DNA from: a virus
Strand: one strand, 5' to 3'
Length of the DNA: 23,636 bases
IMG/VR virus record: IMGVR_UViG_3300000928_000505
Location: 3,952-27,587 of that record
Every line of letters starts with the position of its first letter. The first letter of the stretch is position 1. Shown piece after piece: positions 6,517 through 23,565 of the stretch. The position numbers and the translations under genes were made by a program. The notes under the pieces were generated by a model. That model saw only the letters and a list, made by a program, of their open reading frames with translations. It was not told where the DNA came from and ran no database searches.

Positions 6517-8388
6517 TTAAGAACCGAGTGTTGAAATTACGCCTACGCCCGAACCAAGAGCAATATCAGTCTGTTGTCTATCAATTGCGCCTGATGCAAA
6601 TGATGGGCCTTGGTCAATATCAAGAATATAGCTTCGCAATGGTCTAACAGTCGATTGATTAGATGGTAGAGCTGTCACTTTAAGAAAGTCAACGCCTGCA
6701 GTAATCGATGCAGGCGCAAAGCCTGTAATAGTAACTTTACCTTGCAAGTTATCAAACGATCCTATATTATCTACTTCAATTTCGCCGGTCGAACTAATAA
6801 TCTGCAGTTTAGTGTCATTCAATTTATTTTTGATTGTACAAACTTTACCATTAAATCGAAAGGTTGAAGTCGAGACAACATGCTGTGTAGCACCTGGCGC
6901 AGCTAATTCATTTGGAAAGAATATATCATATGATGTAATAGTATTGAGTGCAGGCAAAAAGCGTTGCTGCATTGCTACTGAGACACGTGAGTTCAAGATA
7001 GCTGCACTGATGTCATCGATCTCGGCAAGAAGCTCTGACCGTCTAAATACTCCGCCAAACTTCTTTAAATTAGTGCTTACATATGAGTTTACAGTATCTG
7101 TAACTGCAGATTCAGTAGACTTAATAGTCGCGCCAGTGAGGTTTGGATCAAAATTAAATGTCACAACAAGTTCTAGAAATGTCGTAGTAGGATCTGCAAA
7201 TTCTGTGTCGATCGATATAATTGATAGGTTATCAGTAACATCAGCAACGATCTTATCTTTAATAGCAACCTTTGCAGCATCTGATGTGTTATCTGCAAAT
7301 ACTAATGAAACAAAAACCTTACCATATTCGGCCGGCGTATTATCTTCTCCGCCCCATGCAATGGCGTCTATTACAGCCGTGAAGTTACTTTGAATAGTAG
7401 CACGATAGTCGTCTGCAGTAACAAGCCGTTGCTGTGCCGCAAAGGCAATAGGCGCGTTTTGTCGAATAGATTCAATACTTTGTTTTGCTGCACCCATTGC
7501 AGAGTTTGATACTGTTGTTGTAGCAAGAGGATAGCTGCTACCATTTATGTTCACACCGCTTGAAGCAGTGAACGTTACCGCACCGTTTGCTTCTCCGCCT
7601 AGGCATGAGAGGTATGAAACAACAATTTTGTTACCAGCAACTGGCGCTGCACCAAACGATATGCCGTCACCAAAGTTAAGTTCATAATAACCATTAGGCG
7701 CTTCTGACATTGCATAATATCTTGATTTTGCAGTAACTGTAACAGCCGATGTAATAGGTGTATATGCATTAAATGCAGTACCATTTGGTGCGTCAAACAC
7801 ATTGACCGCTGCAGTTGATGTGTCAATTGTGTCATCCGGAATAACATACAATTGTCGCTCACCGACTTCGCCAACATAAAATGTCTTAGTTTTCTGCGAG
7901 CCTTCATAGATAGGAATAGTAGTTGTACCTACTTTACTTAAAAACTGATAGAGACCAAATCCGTTATCAGTAGCCGCATAGTCCTCGATCGTTTGATAAG
8001 TGTATGTGACATCGCCGACCGAAGCAGTAAATGTAGTTCCGGCACCAAGCACAACTGACGTGGGCCTATTTGCAACGCCGTTTAGATTAAGTGAGAGAGT
8101 AACCTCGGCCCGACTAGCTGTCCTGCTTCGTGGTTCATATCCCAATGTAGCAGCATGGGATACAACAGATGATCTTAATTGTGCAGTCGAGAGGAACGAC
8201 TCATTTAATGCAAAGTTAGCAGTTAGTGCATTAAAGTGTGTGTTATATGCCAATACGTCTAAAACATTAGACAGCCCAGATGCTTCAAAGTTATAATCTG
8301 AGAATTCAGTGTTCTGAGCAAAATAAGTTTTAAGTTTAGACTTAATATCGTCAAAGTCTAATTTGGATGTTGCTACTGTAGTTGCCAT
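6517..8388 (-). CDS. 6: Baseplate wedge protein gp6
   Basis: At 623 residues it is close to T4 gp6 (660). The N-terminus is diagnostic of gp6/P2 gpJ proteins of T4-like phages: KLDFDDIKSKLKTYF, SDYNFEASGLSNVLDVLAYN, NESFLSTAQLRSSVVSHA and LGYEPRSRTASRAEV (about residues 9-95). The middle has RLVTADDYRATIQSNF and AIAWGGEDNTPAEYGKVFVS (residues about 314-354), the conserved gpJ-type region. gp6 dimers clamp gp7 and form the continuous ring holding the six wedges together. It abuts gp25 (stop at 8390, start at 8388) and the gp7-like gene, giving the conserved 25-6-7 string. It starts at the ATG at 8388; no other ATG precedes the conserved N-terminus. Confidence 0.93.
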   Translation of the reverse strand: MATTVATSKLDFDDIKSKLKTYFAQNTEFSDYNFEASGLSNVLDVLAYNTHFNALTANFALNESFLSTAQLRSSVVSHAATLGYEPRSRTASRAEVTLSLNLNGVANRPTSVVLGAGTTFTASVGDVTYTYQTIEDYAATDNGFGLYQFLSKVGTTTIPIYEGSQKTKTFYVGEVGERQLYVIPDDTIDTSTAAVNVFDAPNGTAFNAYTPITSAVTVTAKSRYYAMSEAPNGYYELNFGDGISFGAAPVAGNKIVVSYLSCLGGEANGAVTFTASSGVNINGSSYPLATTTVSNSAMGAAKQSIESIRQNAPIAFAAQQRLVTADDYRATIQSNFTAVIDAIAWGGEDNTPAEYGKVFVSLVFADNTSDAAKVAIKDKIVADVTDNLSIISIDTEFADPTTTFLELVVTFNFDPNLTGATIKSTESAVTDTVNSYVSTNLKKFGGVFRRSELLAEIDDISAAILNSRVSVAMQQRFLPALNTITSYDIFFPNELAAPGATQHVVSTSTFRFNGKVCTIKNKLNDTKLQIISSTGEIEVDNIGSFDNLQGKVTITGFAPASITAGVDFLKVTALPSNQSTVRPLRSYILDIDQGPSFASGAIDRQQTDIALGSGVGVISTLGS

Positions 8389-8389
8389 A

Positions 8390-8836
8390 TTATCTTAGCC
8401 TTGATAGAGATGTTTCAAGTGTTATTACTTCTGATGTATTAATCACACCAAATTTAACACGCACATCAAGTGAATTGCGATCTGGGTTTGCCTGCACATC
8501 GATGTTAGCGATTACTGCTCGCGGTTCAAATGCTTTGATTGCAGCACGTATATTAATTTCGGCGTTAAATGCAGTAAGCTCATCCATTGGTTCAAACAGA
8601 ATATCACCAAGTCCGCCGCCAAATGATTTTTTAAATGGCTTTTCATTTAAGCCTGTCATAATAAGGTTCTTGACAGCTTGCTTTACTGCTGCAGCATCAT
8701 TTTTCCTATATATGTCACCATCAGGCCGTGCCACAAACGATAGATCTAAATCTTTGTAGTCTTTTGTTCGTGTTGTAATGAGAGTTTGGGCTCCGAGTTG
8801 CCCGTCCTCTGCTGCAAATGCACGTGAAGTTGCCAT
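8390..8836 (-). CDS. 25: Baseplate wedge protein gp25
   Basis: The 148-residue protein carries the gp25/lysozyme-like fold signature of contractile tails: KDLDLSFVARPDGDIYRKND (about 28-47), AVKQAVKNLIMTGLNEKPF, a Gly-rich FGGGLGDILFEP and the EPR motif at residues 104-106 (KAFEPRAVI). The EPR motif packs gp25 against the gp6 trimerisation region and the sheath. gp25 is not a working lysozyme despite the family name. T4 gp25 has 132 residues. It leads the gp25-gp6-gp7-like string and has its own late promoter at 8861-8868. The ribosome binding site is weak (AGAGTAG upstream of the ATG at 8836). Confidence 0.93.
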   Translation of the reverse strand: MATSRAFAAEDGQLGAQTLITTRTKDYKDLDLSFVARPDGDIYRKNDAAAVKQAVKNLIMTGLNEKPFKKSFGGGLGDILFEPMDELTAFNAEINIRAAIKAFEPRAVIANIDVQANPDRNSLDVRVKFGVINTSEVITLETSLSRLR

Positions 8837-8874: not shown

Positions 8875-9519
8875 TTAACCAAGTATTTCTACTAACTCGC
8901 CTGAAGACTGCAAGTTACCGTTAAAACGTGTTTCTAATTGCTTTTTAAATGTAGCGGTAAAGGTAGAAGATATTATAGGCATCTGCAATATGACATGACA
9001 CTCAAGACTTCCGTCTGGATTAAACTTATCATAGTCCATAATAATTTTGTCATATAGTAATGAATCTTTCCAGTAGACCGCAAGATCAAACATTGCGGCA
9101 TGATCTGGCACTCCGTTCTTATCGATTAACTGATACACCACGACCTGTCCTTTTGTGGCAAGATCATTTAAGCCGCCAGATACAAGTGTTTCATCTGCTG
9201 CCTTACGATATAGTCCTTCGACCACAATTAATCGATATGCTCTAAACTGACCTTGACTGCGGTTAACAGTCGACATAGCCTCGGCCTGCAAGTAAAACTG
9301 CCTTGCTATCTGTAATTTGTCTGCTGCATTTGTTACATGATTAAGATTAGTAAACTCACCAGACGCGCCAAGAAACTTACCCATCGTTACGCCTTTAGAC
9401 AATTTAGTTGCAGCCGTAATCGCCTTAGCATTGTTAGGATTATAAGTCGGATCTGGGATGACTGTCTTGATGCCAGGATTAGGAACAAAGCGTTGTATTG
9501 TCTCAGGGGATTGTGCCAT
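8875..9519 (-). CDS. Unrecognised phage structural protein (hub-wedge interval)
   Basis: I do not recognise this 214-residue protein. It starts MAQSPETIQRFVPNPGIKTVIPDP and has no cysteine, no transmembrane segment and no enzymatic motif I can name. The C-terminal third (KFNPDGSLECHVILQ is the exception, with one Cys; then MPIISSTFTATFKKQLETRF and GNLQSSGELVEILG) reads like mixed alpha/beta structural protein. Its ATG shares one base with the stop of the spike gene (TAATG at 9519), implying translational coupling, and a late promoter separates it from gp25. The position between the spike and the first wedge protein suggests a baseplate component or hub-wedge connector, which is inference from context only. 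Similar hypothetical proteins sit between gp5 and gp25 in marine T4-like phages. Confidence 0.75.
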   Translation of the reverse strand: MAQSPETIQRFVPNPGIKTVIPDPTYNPNNAKAITAATKLSKGVTMGKFLGASGEFTNLNHVTNAADKLQIARQFYLQAEAMSTVNRSQGQFRAYRLIVVEGLYRKAADETLVSGGLNDLATKGQVVVYQLIDKNGVPDHAAMFDLAVYWKDSLLYDKIIMDYDKFNPDGSLECHVILQMPIISSTFTATFKKQLETRFNGNLQSSGELVEILG

Positions 9520-11060
9520 TATTGAACACCTATGTGTCTATGATTTTCTTGAGGAGTATATTCAGGACCTACTGTTCGGCCGACCTTTCCAGGCGTAGCT
9601 TTTGTATAGTCGCCTGCAATTTTACCTTCGCCCACTTGCACTGCCATAAAATCTGTATTGTTAAGCGTACCATTGTCACGCATCTTAGATCGAGCTTCTG
9701 ATGTAGTCAATTGACGCGATGCAATACCTCCGGTAGATCCAGTTCTATCGATTGCGCCAAGCAAATCTCCGTTCGGATCTACAAGCACTTTCTGGATACC
9801 ATACGAAGACTTCTGATAGGCCTGCATCAACTCTCCGTCAGGCAATGCAGTATGCCCTGTGTCGTGTGCAAGTATGTCTGTATCGATAGCATTGTTTGTG
9901 ATGGGTGCGCCAGGTGAACCTACATTACCACCTGATCCTGGACCTGTATCTGGGTCAGAATACAACTGATGTCTGGACTGCCGTGCTTCTTCTGCAACAC
10001 CGTCAAGATCGCCATGAAATGTCGGGCTTGTCACGCTGTTACTTGCTACAATATCACCAGTCACTTCGACACGTGTTGCTGTAATTGTATCAACCGCAAG
10101 GGTGCCGGCCGTACCTGGACTACCGTCGCCTAGCCATACTGTATTACCGATATGTGCATTGTAAGAATATAGTGTTACGTTCTTACCGCCAAATGTTCCT
10201 TTGTCGCCAAAGACAGATAACTCGTTGGCCGCAATATTAGTGTCAGGGCTTGTCAAGTTCTGCCGAACCTCAGACGTCATTCGCATTTCGTCACTTGAGA
10301 ATAGATTACATGCTCCTTCGACCGATGTCGCCCATGCACCTTTCACTGCAGCAGTAAACCCGCCAAGATACGTATCGACTACGCCTTTTGCAACTGTCGT
10401 AAATTTGCCGCCCTTTACAATCAGGCCATCGTTCTTCTCGATGTTATATCGACGCGCGCCATCGATATCGGCTCGTTCATCTCCGGCAATAAATTTATTG
10501 TAGTTGCCTGCGACATTTAAGTTGTAATCACCGGTCACATCTACATTTAGATTACCTTGATGTGTCATATGCGTATTGCCTTCAACAACTATATGTGCGT
10601 CGTCTGCAGCTGAGATTAAAAGATCTTTGCCACTCGATATGTACACAGTGCCGTCTGGCTTGATCTCGATACCCGATCCACTCTTATGATGAATCAACAT
10701 CCGCTCGTTGCCAATTGTATCGTCCATCTCGATAATATGTCCACCCGGAGTTTCTATAACTTGGTTGTGTGGATAGGTCGATGCCGTCGCACTATTGTAC
10801 TGCCCGGCTGCCTTGGCGTCTCGTATAATCTTATCTTGATACACGTCTTCTTTTTGCAGCGTGGGTATGCCGCCATTTGTAGTAAGGTCATTGCGCTTAG
10901 TACCAAGCGACGCCATGTTGAGTGAAGACTTATAGAAGTAATCTGCTCGAGGATACAGACCAGAAGGATCTTGAAATCCTACCGGAAATACATTTTGTTT
11001 CTCGGCGCTCTTGCCGCTTTTTAAGATCCGGTCTTCAAGTTCGTCATTTTCTGTTGTCAT
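9519..11060 (-). CDS. Baseplate spike protein, gp5 C-terminal beta-helix type
   Basis: This 513-residue protein matches the beta-helical spike part of T4 gp5 (VgrG-like). After an N-terminal region of about 95 residues comes TPGGHIIEMDDT, ERMLIHHKSGSGIEIKPDG and TVYISSGKDLLISA (104-152). A run of about twelve in-register octapeptides with the T4 pattern VxGxxxxx then covers residues 159-254, for example VEGNTHMT, VTGDYNLN, VAGNYNKF, IAGDERAD, IDGARRYN, VKGGKFTT and VKGAWATS. Such repeats build the trimeric membrane-piercing needle below the hub. There is no OB fold or lysozyme domain here; those lie in the gene at 12656-13513. The C-terminal 150 residues are Gly/Asp-rich and probably capping or partner-binding. 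The gene overlaps the amidase gene upstream by 4 bp and the next gene by 1 bp. Confidence 0.85.
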   Translation of the reverse strand: MTTENDELEDRILKSGKSAEKQNVFPVGFQDPSGLYPRADYFYKSSLNMASLGTKRNDLTTNGGIPTLQKEDVYQDKIIRDAKAAGQYNSATASTYPHNQVIETPGGHIIEMDDTIGNERMLIHHKSGSGIEIKPDGTVYISSGKDLLISAADDAHIVVEGNTHMTHQGNLNVDVTGDYNLNVAGNYNKFIAGDERADIDGARRYNIEKNDGLIVKGGKFTTVAKGVVDTYLGGFTAAVKGAWATSVEGACNLFSSDEMRMTSEVRQNLTSPDTNIAANELSVFGDKGTFGGKNVTLYSYNAHIGNTVWLGDGSPGTAGTLAVDTITATRVEVTGDIVASNSVTSPTFHGDLDGVAEEARQSRHQLYSDPDTGPGSGGNVGSPGAPITNNAIDTDILAHDTGHTALPDGELMQAYQKSSYGIQKVLVDPNGDLLGAIDRTGSTGGIASRQLTTSEARSKMRDNGTLNNTDFMAVQVGEGKIAGDYTKATPGKVGRTVGPEYTPQENHRHIGVQ

Positions 11061-12652
11061 GCTGTTGATGTCCCTCTTGCTGACGCGATCTCTGCAACGG
11101 TCAACGGTTGTGTAGTTCCGCCTGTAATATTAGTTTTATTAAACTTATTCTTCACATACTGCGGCACGCTAAATCCAGGATCAATTTTGCCACGTGGATC
11201 TGTATCGCTATGGCCAAAGGCCTGTCCGCCTGGATATACTATGTAAAACGCGCCAAGAAATAACTCAAGCGCATTCATTTGAGCCGCATTAATTGATTCA
11301 GCCCCTACTAATTTTTCATATCCGGCCGTACCAGAAAGGCAAGTGTAACCGCCGACAAGCGATATGCCTATTGATTTATTGTTGTGTCCATTTGCTTTGG
11401 CATGCGCGCCTGTTCTGTTAATAGGTCTACCGCGCTGTATTCTACCATCGCGCCGTATAAGGTAGTGATAACCCATACCACTGAAGCCTCGAGCCAAATG
11501 CATGTTGTGTATATCTTGTGAGCTGTGATCTTGATCGAGAAACGAAGCAGTCCAGTGAACAACTACTTCTGTTATCTCACGTGTAGGACTTCGTAAATCT
11601 GCTTCAAGTTCTTCGACACCTGATATAAATGTAAATTCATAGGGCGAAGACGAACTTCCGCCGCCACCGCCAGCAGTCGAGCCGGTACTGGCTGGCGGCC
11701 TATACTGTGATGTTGGTGTTTGCACACCGTCCCAGCCCTGCGCATTTGATCCTATCTCAAAATCAGGTAACTGTTGTGATTGTGATCCTAAGACTTGATT
11801 ATAGTCTACACGATCTGACAACTTAGTGCTCAGATTACCTATGCCTGATTCTACTTGTGAAATAGGTAATGACGACACGCCTGCTACTGTAGCAATAGCC
11901 TGAGTAAAATCTCCTGTTTCAATAAGACGGGCGATCGAATTCATCTCTGCAGTTTTAAGTTTGCCTTGTGTAAGGGTAGATATCACTTGCACGATCGGCG
12001 TATCAATAGCATCAACAATGTTTTGTAGGGTCGAGCTAAGTGCAGTGCCAATACTAAGATTAGCCCTTACATTAAACTCTGCAATTACTGGACCAAGCGT
12101 TTGGCCAATTGCTCCAGCAAAGGCTTGTTGCACAAATGCTTGCGCAGATGCACCTTGCACTGCAGATACTGCAGCAAGCAATTGGCTGACAGGTTTACCA
12201 GTTGCAGTGCCAAGTAAACGTTGTATAGCCTGTCCGCCTGAACCTGAGAAATAACTTTGTAAAAATGGTGTAGTGGTCGGACTTCCGTTAGTTAACGCAG
12301 CAAGGGCGCCTGCAGTCGTCAGCACATCTGTAAATTGACTATGTTGTGCATCACCTCCAGAAAACAATTCTGATATATCTGTGATAAGAGAATCGACTAA
12401 TCCTGGTACAGTACCGGTCAACGCTGTTGTGACTGTGCCAAATATATTATCGCCAAACTGTCCAGGATAATCTTCGCCTGCCGTAAGTGCTTGGATGCCA
12501 TTTACTACTTCTCCTTGGAGCGCACCAAGCTTAGATGTGAGCTGCACGTTATATTGGCCAGCAACCTGGTTTGCTGCGTCAATAAGTGGAGTAGACGGAA
12601 ACCTTTGCTCAAATGTAGATAATGTATTGTTTAGTTTTGTAAATGATACCAT
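11057..12652 (-). CDS. Tail-associated N-acetylmuramoyl-L-alanine amidase with long N-terminal region
   Basis: This 531-residue protein has two parts. Residues 1-310 are helical-looking, Ala/Gln/Ser/Thr-rich and free of cysteine. A Gly/Ser linker (about 321-337) leads to a C-terminal amidase_2/PGRP domain (about 355-500) that aligns by eye with T7 lysozyme: EVVVHWTAS (H366), MGYHYLIRRDGRI (Y395), AHAKANGHNNKSIGISLVGG and GHSDTDPRGKIDPGF (H481, K489, D491). H366, H481 and D491 would bind zinc, with D491 replacing the T7 cysteine, while Y395 and K489 correspond to the catalytic Tyr and Lys. Such enzymes cut the MurNAc-L-Ala bond. Sitting between the gp5 OB-fold gene and the spike, it is probably a virion enzyme for entry rather than an endolysin for host lysis. 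The role of the N-terminal part is unknown. Confidence 0.85.
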   Translation of the reverse strand: MVSFTKLNNTLSTFEQRFPSTPLIDAANQVAGQYNVQLTSKLGALQGEVVNGIQALTAGEDYPGQFGDNIFGTVTTALTGTVPGLVDSLITDISELFSGGDAQHSQFTDVLTTAGALAALTNGSPTTTPFLQSYFSGSGGQAIQRLLGTATGKPVSQLLAAVSAVQGASAQAFVQQAFAGAIGQTLGPVIAEFNVRANLSIGTALSSTLQNIVDAIDTPIVQVISTLTQGKLKTAEMNSIARLIETGDFTQAIATVAGVSSLPISQVESGIGNLSTKLSDRVDYNQVLGSQSQQLPDFEIGSNAQGWDGVQTPTSQYRPPASTGSTAGGGGGSSSSPYEFTFISGVEELEADLRSPTREITEVVVHWTASFLDQDHSSQDIHNMHLARGFSGMGYHYLIRRDGRIQRGRPINRTGAHAKANGHNNKSIGISLVGGYTCLSGTAGYEKLVGAESINAAQMNALELFLGAFYIVYPGGQAFGHSDTDPRGKIDPGFSVPQYVKNKFNKTNITGGTTQPLTVAEIASARGTSTA

Positions 12653-12655
12653 AAT

Positions 12656-13513
12656 CTAGCTCCAGTTCTTAATAGCTTTGGCACTAGCCGGAATACCATC
12701 ACGCACGCCAATGCCGGCCGGTTTTCTTCCGTACCAAGGACCCCAGCCGCCGGTTGCAACCTTGTCAAGAGCATATCGCACTTGGTTTGTTACACCGTCA
12801 CGCGTATTGTCATTTCTCAAATCGCGATTAGTCGCTGATTCATAATCATTACCCATGCCACCACCTACATATAATTGAAATGGTCCGTATGACGCTTCAC
12901 GCCCGCCGCGCTTGAGTTGGTTGCCGGCTGTCACACTTGATTGATATATGCCTCCACCTTCGGCCTTCCATAGGCGCACTGCAATATTAGGATCTATGCC
13001 TCGAAGATTTGACTCTTGTCGGATTTGTTGCTCGATCCATGCATTTGACACATCAGAAGGATATTGTGGAATACCTGTGTTAGATGTAGTGCTGCGAGAT
13101 GATCCGGCAGTATTGTAATTAACACTATTCTCACGCGCTGTGGCCGGATCTGTTTGATCTACACCATAGCCAATGTCTCTATTCTGTGATGCGACTAGCT
13201 GCTGTTCAGACGGTATTTCAATGCGTGGCACTACTCCTAAGACAAGAGGCAATTGGCTTTCGGCGCCGTCCATAAAAAACCCTACGACCTGCGCACCCGG
13301 TAAAATCTGCGGCATTGCGCCTATACCAGATGTGCCGCCAGATGTTGTTGGTTGCATGACACTTGCCCAAGGTAGTTGTGAGTTCTGGATCGCATCATGA
13401 TTACGATTATGTATTCCAAAAATACGTACTTGCACGCGTCCTAATTGTAAAGGATCAAGGTTATTCACCACAATCCCAACAAACCATCTAAATGAATCAC
13501 CATAATGCTGCAT
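12656..13513 (-). CDS. 5: Baseplate hub gp5: OB fold plus lytic transglycosylase-like domain
   Basis: The 285-residue protein has an N-terminal gp5/VgrG OB-fold hub domain (residues about 5-100: YGDSFRWFVGIVVNNLDPLQLG, RVQVRIFGIH, QLPWASVMQPTTSGG, MDGAESQLPLVLGVVP). A Ser/Thr/Asn linker (100-155) follows. The C-terminal region (about 155-285) looks like a goose-type or SLT-type muramidase/transglycosylase: IDPNIAVRLWKAEGGG with candidate catalytic Glu185, then EASYGPFQL at 207-214, the usual G-P-x-Q(L) element. The OB fold should dock on the gp27-like hub encoded just upstream, and the enzyme should cut glycan strands during infection. T4 gp5 (575 residues) has OB, lysozyme and beta-helix in one chain; here the helix is encoded separately. 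The ATG overlaps the upstream stop by 1 bp. The OB part is certain; the enzyme class is less so. Confidence 0.85.
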   Translation of the reverse strand: MQHYGDSFRWFVGIVVNNLDPLQLGRVQVRIFGIHNRNHDAIQNSQLPWASVMQPTTSGGTSGIGAMPQILPGAQVVGFFMDGAESQLPLVLGVVPRIEIPSEQQLVASQNRDIGYGVDQTDPATARENSVNYNTAGSSRSTTSNTGIPQYPSDVSNAWIEQQIRQESNLRGIDPNIAVRLWKAEGGGIYQSSVTAGNQLKRGGREASYGPFQLYVGGGMGNDYESATNRDLRNDNTRDGVTNQVRYALDKVATGGWGPWYGRKPAGIGVRDGIPASAKAIKNWS

Positions 13514-14883
13514 TAACTTACGCCTGTATTGCCTTTATAGTTTGTAATCTTAATGAGGCTCATCTTTATTTTATAAGATTCTTTACCCATTATGTGATTA
13601 CAACCATATACTAAATAATCGCCTGACCGCTTTTGATCTATATTTGGTTCACCTTTGGTGGCTTGTTCGTTTGCCATAGTCAATATCGAAATCATGTTAC
13701 CTACAGTACGATGATCGCCCTGCGGGAAAAATTGTCTGCCGGCAACAAGTATTTGGACTGGCGATTTTTTAGCCAAATTTCGAAATGATTTACTAATAGC
13801 CTTTGCGCTTTGCCGTGCAGTAGTGCCTTCCTCATATATATTGCCTACACCAGCCTCATATATTGATGTAGTAGCGATCTGAGTAATGCGCTGTGATCTA
13901 TATTCATTTGCACTCTTGTTATTAAATTTAGTCTGTGTATCAAATACAGGTGCTGCATTTGCCGGTAAGACCTGTTTAAACACTTTGCCAATATCATATG
14001 CAAATGCCTGCTCGATTGCTGCAGTAGTATCCACATATTCGTACTGTGCACCAATGTCTCCGTTCATGATAAGCCGCAGTGCATTTTCGCTAGACCGTAT
14101 TTCCATCTCTTCGATGTTAAGTGCTAATGCATCACCCGTAGCTTCGGACGTCGAAACTGCAGCGGCCGATCGCAGCAACGGATTTTCCGCGTTAATAGAA
14201 GACTGCGTTATGAGAGAATATAGATCAAAGAATCTAAGATTATTATCACTCAATGACGCATAGCAATAACAAGGCATGCCGTTTGTACCTGTAGCACGTC
14301 TGGTCATGGTGTCAATTACTTGATATGGCGACTTGTTCGGAACAATATAGCGCATGCTATTTTGTAATTCTTTTGCCTGACTAAAAAATCCATCGGCATT
14401 AGGGTTATTTGATTCTGCAGTCGTACCACCGCGGTTGAGAGTTTTATTTGCGCCAAAGTTATCTTGCAACACATGTGCAATAATCTCTGAAGGTCTGCCT
14501 TCGTAGACTTTGTTCACATTAATGAGCGAAGATATATAGGCATCGATATCAATAAGAGCAAGAGCTACTGCATCGCTTGTGTCAGTTGCCGGCGTAATAC
14601 CTGTAACTTGTCGTATTGCAAATTCTTTTTTTATCTTAAAATCAGTCTGATGCATGGCAACGACAATCGTAACTTTCTCTGTGCCATTGAAATCAATTGC
14701 CTCAACAACCCTTGCGTCATCAAGAAACGTCAGTGCGCCAGTGATATATGTACGTTCCATATGTTCGTACAACTCGATCTCAATGACGGCCGCTGTAATG
14801 TCAAACTCATGCTCATTTCGGCCATGAGATATTATAACGCTCTCAAGCTTATACTCGGTAGGACTACTTGGTGAATATTCCAT
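13513..14883 (-). CDS. 27: Baseplate hub protein, gp27-like
   Basis: This 456-residue protein sits directly before the gp5 OB-fold gene. It has the beta-rich content of gp27/P2 gpD hub proteins: YKLESVIISHG, FDITAAVIEIELYEHMERTY and ITGALTFLDDARVVEAIDFNG (about 11-66), then EKVTIVVAMHQTDF and VYEGRPSEIIAHVLQDNF, where the fold is interrupted by a helical insert, and SGDYLVYGCNHIMGKESYKI near the C-terminus (about 420-439), typical of the second tube-like domain. gp27 trimers adapt the hexameric tail tube to the trimeric gp5 spike. T4 gp27 has 391 residues. Junctions overlap by 1 bp on both sides, giving tight coupling gp53-gp27-gp5. The identification rests on position plus motif style; the family diverges strongly in sequence. 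Confidence 0.72.
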   Translation of the reverse strand: MEYSPSSPTEYKLESVIISHGRNEHEFDITAAVIEIELYEHMERTYITGALTFLDDARVVEAIDFNGTEKVTIVVAMHQTDFKIKKEFAIRQVTGITPATDTSDAVALALIDIDAYISSLINVNKVYEGRPSEIIAHVLQDNFGANKTLNRGGTTAESNNPNADGFFSQAKELQNSMRYIVPNKSPYQVIDTMTRRATGTNGMPCYCYASLSDNNLRFFDLYSLITQSSINAENPLLRSAAAVSTSEATGDALALNIEEMEIRSSENALRLIMNGDIGAQYEYVDTTAAIEQAFAYDIGKVFKQVLPANAAPVFDTQTKFNNKSANEYRSQRITQIATTSIYEAGVGNIYEEGTTARQSAKAISKSFRNLAKKSPVQILVAGRQFFPQGDHRTVGNMISILTMANEQATKGEPNIDQKRSGDYLVYGCNHIMGKESYKIKMSLIKITNYKGNTGVS

Positions 14884-15617
14884 TAGCTAAGTTCTTCTCG
14901 AAAGGCCTTAGTAATTTGTCCTACTTGTGCAGGTTTGATTACTCGTATAGCTTTAAGACTGTCGTTCTGCTTACGATAAAACTCTAGGTTGGTCACAGGT
15001 GTATAGGATGCCGGTACGATGCCACTATGAGGATCGATATCAACTTGTGCCAGTGTCTCATCAATATAATGTTTAGTTGCGTTAGCCTGATCTATCGAGT
15101 TTGTCAATCTAATAGACTCGACTATTTCTCCGACCTGCGATGTGATAACTTCACTATTATTAAATGTGCCTGATAGCGTGCTTGCATCGATGACCAATTG
15201 CCCCAGATCCAAATTACGTTTTAAAATCTTGCCGGTCGAACCTGTGCTTGATCCTGAAACTATTTGGCCGACCTTAAACTTGCCAGTGAGTTCTGCAGTC
15301 GTGGTAAGTACTCGATGTGGCAGGTCTGCTGCAGCGCGCTCTTTTAGCTGCAGCTCTGTTAATGGCCAGCCTTGTTCACGGATGTTGTCGTTCATCAAGA
15401 AAAACGTCCAATAATAATCAGGCGTATTATACAATTGCGTCGATACCTGATCTGGCCTATCGCCTTCTTGGATGTTATGCTTTGTATAAAACGCAACTAA
15501 ATTCTTGACGTTATCAATAATTTCAACATATGCAGATATGTTCTGCACACCAATATCAGGTAGATTATTCCCAAACGAATAGCCTGTGACCGGAAAGTCT
15601 TTAAAATAAGTGCTCAT
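14883..15617 (-). CDS. 53: Baseplate wedge protein gp53
   Basis: The 244-residue protein shows the gp53 signature of T4-like phages: YFKDFPVTGYSFGNNLPDIG, VAFYTKHNIQEGDRPDQVS, then LYNTPDYYWTFFLMNDNIREQG and WPLTELQLKERA (about residues 4-95). T4 gp53 (196 residues) contains a LysM-like fold and locks adjacent wedges together through gp6-gp7-gp8 contacts. The extra length is a beta-rich insert at about 105-170 (KVGQIVSGSSTGSTGKIL and a second similar segment), common in marine homologues. The C-terminal YRKQNDSLKAIRVIKPAQVG is also typical. The gene begins at the base where gp48 ends (1-bp overlap), so the two are probably translated as a coupled pair. Confidence 0.88.
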   Translation of the reverse strand: MSTYFKDFPVTGYSFGNNLPDIGVQNISAYVEIIDNVKNLVAFYTKHNIQEGDRPDQVSTQLYNTPDYYWTFFLMNDNIREQGWPLTELQLKERAAADLPHRVLTTTAELTGKFKVGQIVSGSSTGSTGKILKRNLDLGQLVIDASTLSGTFNNSEVITSQVGEIVESIRLTNSIDQANATKHYIDETLAQVDIDPHSGIVPASYTPVTNLEFYRKQNDSLKAIRVIKPAQVGQITKAFREELS

Positions 15618-16612
15618 TAGAACGGTACCTCGTCATATGTCGAACCTTCATATTCTACTTGTTTCTGAAGGAAGGTTTCCCACCACTCTTTGTTATTACC
15701 GCCAAGTGGGTCTAGATCGTAGGTTATGTCGGCCTTTGACATTGTTCTGTATTCTACAAACGACAGATTCAAGTCAACTTCACTGAACGATCCGTCTTTA
15801 TAAAAACTCTGTGATGTGCCATTATATGTTGTACTAACATTTTTTAGATATGATGGCAGCAACTTTTGGCCGATCTGGTTGCCATTATATAGCATTTGCA
15901 TCGCAAACGGATTAGGGAATTTATAACCTACCGATATGCCGCCAAGATTAATATTTTCTGGATATAGCTCAGATCTAAAATACTTGATGATTTTTACTAT
16001 TTCATCTGCTTCTGCTTTGTTGCGTGGTAAGAATTTAAATGAAAACGAATGTTCACGATGGTTAACTGTTTTAAAGGTGGCGCGGGTGTTTGGATTAGTA
16101 GTTGTTCTAAGAGCATTGCTCACGACGTTACCTGCAGCATCACCAGGAACAGCGCTTGCCAGTTTAGCTGCCAGTGCAGCGCCAACATCCTTATTTCCCT
16201 TTGCTGCAGCGATCATACGATCGATCCCGCCTTCATTGCCAAACCCTGCTACAGCTGCAGCTGTTGCTATTACTTGATTAGCAGCACCTTCGGCATCGTT
16301 AAAAGCTTTAAGACCAGCAACACCACTTGCACCAAGCTGTGCATTTTCAAAGTTAACACCATCCTGAAACTGCAGTGCGGCAGGCATGTACAGCATACAC
16401 GAGTCGCCTTCAAGGCCGTACTGTGCATTGAGATTTGATACAAGGTTATTCAATAGTGTGTCAACCCAGTTATTGAATATGTTACCTGAAGATTGCCGGC
16501 GGTTGGCCTGTACAAATTCCATTTGAGTTGGATCTGATACTAGCGTTCTAAATAATATCTTAGCTTTATAGTCATCTTGATCGCTGAGTGGAAATCTATA
16601 ACTTTTGCCCAT
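15617..16612 (-). CDS. 48: Baseplate tail-tube cap gp48 (gp48/gp54 family)
   Basis: This 331-residue protein opens the minus-strand baseplate operon. Diagnostic stretches are SYRFPLSDQDDYKAKILFRT at the start, GDSCMLYMPAALQFQDGVNFEN (about 69-90), and the C-terminal tail-tube-like half NTRATFKTVNHREHSFSFKF, LPRNKAEADEIVKIIKYFRSEL, YPEN and FKFPNPF-like YKFPNPFAMQMLY, then SYLKNVSTTYNG. gp48 caps the baseplate hub and starts tube polymerisation with gp54; both share the tube fold. No second gene of this size is present, so gp54 may be supplied by the small tube-family gene at 17753-18334 or lie elsewhere. T4 gp48 has 364 residues. The ATG at 16612 has an AGGAAA ribosome binding site and a perfect late promoter at 16649-16656. 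Confidence 0.85.
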   Translation of the reverse strand: MGKSYRFPLSDQDDYKAKILFRTLVSDPTQMEFVQANRRQSSGNIFNNWVDTLLNNLVSNLNAQYGLEGDSCMLYMPAALQFQDGVNFENAQLGASGVAGLKAFNDAEGAANQVIATAAAVAGFGNEGGIDRMIAAAKGNKDVGAALAAKLASAVPGDAAGNVVSNALRTTTNPNTRATFKTVNHREHSFSFKFLPRNKAEADEIVKIIKYFRSELYPENINLGGISVGYKFPNPFAMQMLYNGNQIGQKLLPSYLKNVSTTYNGTSQSFYKDGSFSEVDLNLSFVEYRTMSKADITYDLDPLGGNNKEWWETFLQKQVEYEGSTYDEVPF

Positions 16613-22539: not shown

Positions 22540-23565
22540 TTATTCAAAAACAATTACGTCACCATCGGAATAAACGCTGGTCATTTCTTCGTATTGGACC
22601 TTATCGATAGAGACGCTTTGACAAGCACCCACTGTACTACATGGATAACCTATCTTTTCAAAGTTTTGCATCTTTAACTGATTAACAAAGTTAATCCGCC
22701 TTTGTGACTGCCAAACTTCTAATACTGTTTGTTCTTTTAAATTGCCAAGCACAAGATCCTGATTATCATCAAGGCAACATGCATAGTAATCACCATTTGG
22801 TGCTATGTACATCACTTCTTGTATCGCTGATATGAGCGGGCATTTTAAATCGGGTTGTGACTTATATTCTCCGGATTTAAATTTAGATCTTTCGGCCCAT
22901 AAGCCTGATTCACTATGCCTGACTAGCGTGAGCGAATCATATATGTGTTCACCCAATTCGTCTTTAAGCATTTGTGTCACAAGCTCGTGAGAGCTAAATG
23001 GCACTGATGTTCCTGGTTTTACTTGAGCCGGATATTTATTAAATACAGTGAACACTGTAGTAGCGTATTCAAAAGCAGGCATTACATTAATCGCAAAATT
23101 CATTTCAGGATAATGTTTGGCGCGCAACTCTAAAAAATGTTTTAGATTTTTCATCACTGATTTGAGTGGAATACCTTTCACTGCACCGTATGAATCTTGA
23201 TTGTGCCCATCAACGTTGACTTGAATTGAATAGAAAAGTTTTTCCTTCACTAAGATCTCTGCAACCTTTTTAGACATGAGTCCAAAATTACTTAGCATAT
23301 CAACTTCGGTGTTTGGCAATTTCTTTTTTATGTATCGTAGAATTTCAATAAAATCTTTATGATATAGTGCCTCACCATTCTCACTCATATGCATATTTTT
23401 AATCTCATACGGAAATGCCGGATCAGAAATCTCATCAACGATCTTAAAGACCAAATCTTTATCCATGTCAAAATGCAATTTGGTGCCCCGAGAACTAGGA
23501 CACCAAATACATGTTGCATTACATCTGTTAGATAAGATAAAATTTATATTGCGCAGCGGCTTCAT
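22540..23565 (-). CDS. Radical SAM enzyme with SPASM-like C-terminus
   Basis: The 341-residue protein has the radical SAM cluster motif CxxxCxxC at C15, C19, C22 (FILSNRCNATCIWCPSS) and the SAM-binding NGE in MSENGEALYH (63-65). TIM-barrel strands follow, for example EVDMLSNFGL and SIQVNVDGHNQDSY. The C-terminal region carries C242, then IAPNGDYYACCLDDNQDLVLG with C263/C264, NLKEQTVLEVWQS, and C309/C315 (PCSTVGAC), the pattern of a SPASM/twitch extension that binds a second Fe-S cluster. Such enzymes modify peptides or small molecules; nothing here identifies the substrate, and no adjacent precursor peptide is visible. The ATG overlaps the upstream gene's TGA by 4 bp (ATGA), so it belongs to the gp33-gp32 transcription unit. 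T4 has gene 59 at this place. Enzyme class is secure; function is not known. Confidence 0.88.
   Translation of the reverse strand: MKPLRNINFILSNRCNATCIWCPSSRGTKLHFDMDKDLVFKIVDEISDPAFPYEIKNMHMSENGEALYHKDFIEILRYIKKKLPNTEVDMLSNFGLMSKKVAEILVKEKLFYSIQVNVDGHNQDSYGAVKGIPLKSVMKNLKHFLELRAKHYPEMNFAINVMPAFEYATTVFTVFNKYPAQVKPGTSVPFSSHELVTQMLKDELGEHIYDSLTLVRHSESGLWAERSKFKSGEYKSQPDLKCPLISAIQEVMYIAPNGDYYACCLDDNQDLVLGNLKEQTVLEVWQSQRRINFVNQLKMQNFEKIGYPCSTVGACQSVSIDKVQYEEMTSVYSDGDVIVFE

Follow-up and report, generated by a model that had tools for sequence, protein, structure and literature searches.

The gp5 chain of bacteriophage T4 is cut during maturation in the stretch between its lysozyme and its beta-helix. 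The protein comprises an OB domain (residues 1-129), a lysozyme (174-339) and a beta-helix (389-575) (PMC4576200). A split gp5 has been published for the rhizobial T4-like phages Atu_ph04, phiM9 and vB_RleM_P10VF (PMC6630229). In phage P1, gp5 lacks a lysozyme and an SLT domain is found on the tape measure protein Sit (PMC9024508), and gp13 of phi29 unites lysozyme-like and endopeptidase parts (PMC9863714). A study of pelagimyophages described gp5 as unusually divergent and tentatively linked this to the host wall (PMC7029224), and a review places tail lysins that cut peptides almost exclusively among phages with Gram-positive hosts (PMC6116005). Here, we analyse a locus in which a T4-type hub and needle are likely to be built from separate chains bearing two wall enzymes that are predicted to attack different bonds; virion location, docking, catalysis and specificity are what we infer. 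Splitting of gp5 is already published; the present hub combines separate chains with exchangeable enzymes and an added amidase protein of predicted tail function.

The window, i.e. the whole stretch of 23,636 nucleotides that was analysed, covers bases 3952-27587 of a 27.6-kb virus fragment in IMG/VR (IMGVR_UViG_3300000928_000505) and comes from an uncultured T4-like virus. It is a T4-like baseplate region, in which gp8, gp6, gp25, gp53 and gp48-like genes, T4_baseplate and gp32 were recognised by Pfam and PHROGs. A gene for a radical SAM/SPASM protein lies at 22540-23565, beside gp32. The three central genes were confirmed as open reading frames, all on the minus strand, and encode an OB protein of 285 residues, an amidase protein of 531 residues and a spike protein of 513 residues. 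With their neighbours, they are arranged in the window as follows.

12656-13513, minus strand: hub protein with a T4 gp5-type OB domain (residues ~1-105), a linker and a lysozyme-like domain (148-285)
12659-13072, minus strand: the lysozyme-like lytic domain, with predicted catalytic Glu185 and the motifs YQS and G-x-EAS-x-GP-x-QL
11057-12652, minus strand: second enzyme protein with a lineage-specific N-terminus and a zinc amidase (357-493)
9519-11060, minus strand: free-standing gp5C-type central spike, with octads at 159-254 and an extra C-terminal extension (300-513)
13513-14883, minus strand: gp27-like hub protein, adjoining the OB gene (PHROG_350 'tail protein', 2.5e-39)
14883-15617, minus strand: gp53-like baseplate wedge (Pfam Phage_gp53, PHROG_232)
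15617-16612, minus strand: gp48/54-like tail tube cap (Pfam T4_tail_cap, PHROG_230)
8875-9519, minus strand: protein of 214 aa encoded between spike and gp25, conserved and syntenic in relatives reaching there (56-77% identity); no family match in Pfam or PHROG
8390-8836, minus strand: gp25-like baseplate wedge (Pfam / PHROGs)
6517-8388, minus strand: gp6-like baseplate wedge (Pfam / PHROGs)

The tight coupling that the preliminary description had reported for the three genes is evident from junctions of 1-4 nt. On the minus strand, the stop codon of the gp27-like gene overlaps the OB start by 1 nt (TAATG), a gap of 3 nt separates the OB gene from the amidase gene, the amidase and spike genes overlap in ATGA, and the spike gene overlaps the following gene by 1 nt. 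We call the product of 13513-14883 gp27-like on the basis of its PHROG, its position and weak matches: a profile search of the PDB gave nothing significant, and a weak profile match (7e-4) leads to a protein of vB_OspM_OC for which the depositors' HHpred annotation is to 1WTH chain D, which is gp27.

Relatives in IMG/VR were collected by the OB protein, the gp27-like protein and the amidase. An OB-domain relative is encoded on 534 candidate stretches, and clustering of the OB proteins at 95% identity leaves 65 non-redundant loci. The complete order of gp27, OB plus enzyme, amidase-type protein and spike is found in 45 of these 65, with junctions mostly between -4 and +10 nt.

The OB domain is matched by Gp5_OB of Pfam (1.3e-8), by PHROG_430 (3e-33) and by T4 gp5 itself (~3e-14, phmmer), with residues 4-93 aligning to residues 4-98 of T4 gp5; its model agrees with 1k28 at a VIA-align Z of 11.6 (rmsd 3.3 over 97 residues). 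The spike protein matches Gp5_trimer_C of Pfam and, by profile, residues 382-551 of T4 gp5 (4e-14 to 3e-13), and it carries 12 octads in succession at residues 159-254, a score reached by none of 2000 shuffles. Both the OB fold and the free-standing octapeptide spike of the preliminary description are borne out by these matches. Within PHROG_430, the gp5 family, positions 11-108 are matched by the OB protein and 325-505 by the spike protein; since these are separate parts, the two point to one ancestral protein encoded in two genes. OB, lysozyme and spike are not on one polypeptide, as the amidase gene lies between the two genes that encode them. Since this amidase gene is no piece of gp5, gp5 occupies two genes that flank a third, and the dispersal over three genes claimed earlier holds for the separateness of the genes, but not for their number. 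The proposal of a gp5 equivalent made of separate chains nevertheless stands, given the matches to different parts of gp5 and the order kept in 45 relatives. Compared with the T4 domains, the gene break falls between the lysozyme and the beta-helix, within the stretch where T4 gp5 is cut during maturation, so that the hub of this phage would mature without such a cut. That the split is an artefact of sequencing or assembly, with a frameshift breaking one gene, has negligible probability, and nothing was found in its favour: every open reading frame has its own start and stop, the frame between the gp5 halves encodes an unrelated amidase, and identical boundaries recur in 45 non-redundant loci, a recurrence on which we reject it.

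Residues 148-285 of the OB protein matched no Pfam family, and a profile search of the PDB found no significant solved homologue of this lytic domain. AlphaFold gave the OB protein a pLDDT of only 30 from the single sequence; with a 35-sequence alignment, pLDDT is 91-98 over residues 151-285, and a lysozyme-like fold is modelled for residues 148-285. The refuting outcome named in the preliminary description, structural models with no lytic fold in residues 155-285, thus did not arise. E185 stands directly after the helix 175-184 in this model, and Glu185, YQS and G-x-EAS-x-GP-x-QL are invariant among 26 relatives. VIA-align superposes the model on c-type lysozymes over about 105 residues (Z 7.1-7.5, rmsd 2.7-3.7) and on the phi6 lysin (Z 6.8), a likeness that is moderate and at the level of the fold only, as the values of 7-7.5 lie below the tool's own caution line of Z 8. 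At one locus (L068) the domain is fused to PG_binding_1, and at another (L077) it belongs to a base_V/OB protein that contains a further lysozyme. The fold model, the invariant Glu at the helix end and these two fusions together argue for the lysozyme superfamily, a predicted class that spans transglycosylases and hydrolysing muramidases; the label 'transglycosylase-like' given to the domain earlier can be narrowed no further than the superfamily. A homologous domain (39-43% identity) is present in internal virion or tape-measure proteins of Sulfitobacter phiGT1, Ochrobactrum OH and Sinorhizobium phiM5, yet these proteins are outside any gp5-type hub. For the phiGT1 virion protein, the depositors' HHpred match is to FlgJ and other muramidases. 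This Pfam-less lysozyme-like domain seems to represent a lytic family that is widespread in phages but has no name. It recurs at four loci (L065, L068, L077 and L084), where its company includes PG_binding_1, base_V/OB proteins and a weak match of PAAR type.

The amidase protein contains Amidase_2 at residues 357-493 (Pfam, 4.5e-16), with a match to T7 lysozyme (5e-13) and further matches to PHROG lysis families. All five known amidase positions are intact, namely the zinc ligands H366, H481 and D491 and the catalytic Y395 and K489. A separate amidase protein had been proposed here, and the present matches confirm it; neighbouring genes of the hub cluster encode two enzymes whose predicted target bonds differ, as was also claimed. 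The N-terminus (the first ~320-340 residues) has no match among 50,697 phage records at E up to 1, and it is conserved across the IMG/VR relatives. An origin of this N-terminus in the middle of a fused gp5 (P-SSM4, vB_OspM_OC, Mosig or ORM_20) was rejected, there being no significant similarity. The N-terminal domain is retained in relatives even where amidase ligands have been lost, which fits a structural role.

Amidases of the T7 type are usually endolysins. The main rival to a tail function is that the amidase gene encodes a phage endolysin, serving to lyse the host late in infection and parked in the baseplate cluster, and that the OB protein is the sole tail enzyme. The T7-lysozyme type of the domain, with its matches to lysis families, fits such an endolysin, as does the lack of a second amidase in a 135-kb relative (G001). 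Moreover, no other endolysin was found in the longer relatives among the families tried (M15_3/M15_4, Phage_lysozyme, SLT and CHAP; the controls were silent for two families). However, this endolysin is unlikely in view of an N-terminal domain that is conserved and without counterpart in phage records, a place between hub and spike that is fixed in 45 loci, and several relatives that keep the N-terminus while losing amidase ligands; one relative (L146) even has an N-terminal-only reading frame followed by a separate amidase frame. These two frames (L146:6801-8968) are ~600 bp apart, a possible insertion or a real fission. From its gene position and conserved N-terminus, we infer that the amidase protein is part of the virion. 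Both catalytic domains might be in the virion with one or both being inactive relics that serve wall binding or structure, and five relatives (L056, L062, L063, L011 and L142) do keep the gene despite the loss of the catalytic Lys or of zinc ligands. Such relics are nevertheless decidedly improbable, with all five amidase positions intact in the window and Glu185 and the motifs invariant in 26 homologues.

The 45 loci differ in their enzymes. The hub enzyme is of the window type in nine and Phage_lysozyme2 in 36 (one by Pfam only). Two relatives, L014 and L015, share 66-72% identity with the window in the best segment of the OB part and have a lytic domain of a different family, which is a clean domain exchange. 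The five amidase positions are all intact in 25 of the 45. Arg replaces the catalytic Lys in L011, where an M15 peptidase lies behind the amidase; an M15 match behind the amidase is likewise found in L167, and at the end of the spike in L139 and L148, all three with altered amidase positions. In the latter two (L139:3226-5709 and L148:5738-8320), it is the spike protein itself that carries the M15 peptidase domain, at its C-terminus. Five more relatives (L056, L062, L063, L054 and L142) combine altered amidase sites with extra C-terminal domains bearing an M15-like motif. For the first four of these, Pfam found no M15 and hhalign was not significant, and their assignment, by resemblance to a zinc motif, is a lead only. 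An intact amidase is found in 0 of 9 cases with an M15 or M15-like domain versus 25 of 37 otherwise (hypergeometric 2.7e-4), a value that ignores sequence kinship and takes in the motif-only cases, so that the counts are descriptive; the four profile-supported M15 cases alone give 0.03, again with kinship ignored. Predicted enzyme types are thus exchanged within a cassette common to dozens of related uncultured viruses.

By analogy with T4, in which gp5 and gp27 form a 3:3 complex, the OB protein would dock as a trimer on a ring of the gp27-like protein, and the spike protein would trimerise alone to form a gp5C-like beta-helical needle below the OB trimer. The conserved N-terminal domain of the amidase protein probably attaches to the hub or spike, although its docking is a guess. 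Once the sheath contracts, both enzymes would be active at the point where the tube passes through the peptidoglycan: the lysozyme-superfamily domain on the OB protein is predicted to cut glycan strands, and the zinc amidase is predicted to sever the link between glycan and stem peptide. It is possible, and we suggest it tentatively, that a large uncultured T4-like lineage possesses this as a cassette, with a glycan cutter on the OB protein and a stem-peptide cutter on a dedicated adaptor, which would itself be a structural subunit between the OB trimer and the free spike; selection would then keep the pair of activities and swap the families (lysozyme-like or Phage_lysozyme2; amidase or M15). 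If T4-like phages keep an amidase or M15 enzyme in their hub cluster as a conserved partner, many uncultured viruses would form an exception to the near-restriction to phages of Gram-positive hosts stated in the review cited above. The locus also shows where the T4 puncturing device is separable into independent chains and which of its enzyme modules are exchangeable, which bears on the adaptation of tail tips to host walls. As for the thick or unusual wall suggested in the preliminary description, no evidence on the host wall was found.

T4 gp5, with gp27, shares with the window the OB domain, a lysozyme-superfamily domain, the octapeptide beta-helix and a gp27-like neighbour. The differences are that T4 gp5 is one chain cut after synthesis, whereas in the window gp5 is divided between two genes, the lytic domain belongs to a different family and an amidase protein is added. 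The rhizobial T4-like phages (phiM9, vB_RleM_P10VF and Atu_ph04; also ORM_20 and OLIVR5) likewise encode the spike apart from an OB-plus-enzyme protein, which has ~300 aa. In ORM_20, however, the hub enzyme is a CHAP domain and no amidase gene lies between OB and spike; its spike gene is found beside the terminase, >100 kb from the OB-CHAP gene in the record. Close homologues of this OB-CHAP protein occur in phiM9, OLIVR5, P10VF and others. Among deposited genomes, the nearest gp6 is that of Phage C48C1 (OQ984149; 44.5%). The gp5 of C48C1 (L105:8839-9429) has 196 aa, with an OB domain, a weak hint of needle repeats and no recognised enzyme.

P1 resembles the window in having a needle without its own lysozyme and another tail protein that supplies the enzyme, but there an SLT domain on the tape measure does so and OB and needle remain fused. 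In phi29, gp13 similarly brings a lysozyme-like domain and an endopeptidase to the tail tip, although as one chain, in a short-tailed phage of a Gram-positive host. In the Ochrobactrum isolate vB_OspM_OC (Kyanoviridae; MT028491), a single gp5 of 808 aa (L104:3510-5936) unites OB, M15, Phage_lysozyme2 and spike. This gp5 occupies the same place after gp48, gp53 and gp27 and also has a predicted glycan cutter and peptide cutter, but it holds all four domains in one chain, with M15 for the amidase and Phage_lysozyme2 for the lytic domain of the window. The predicted domains of this chain support it as a precedent for a glycan cutter and a peptide cutter within a gp5 protein.
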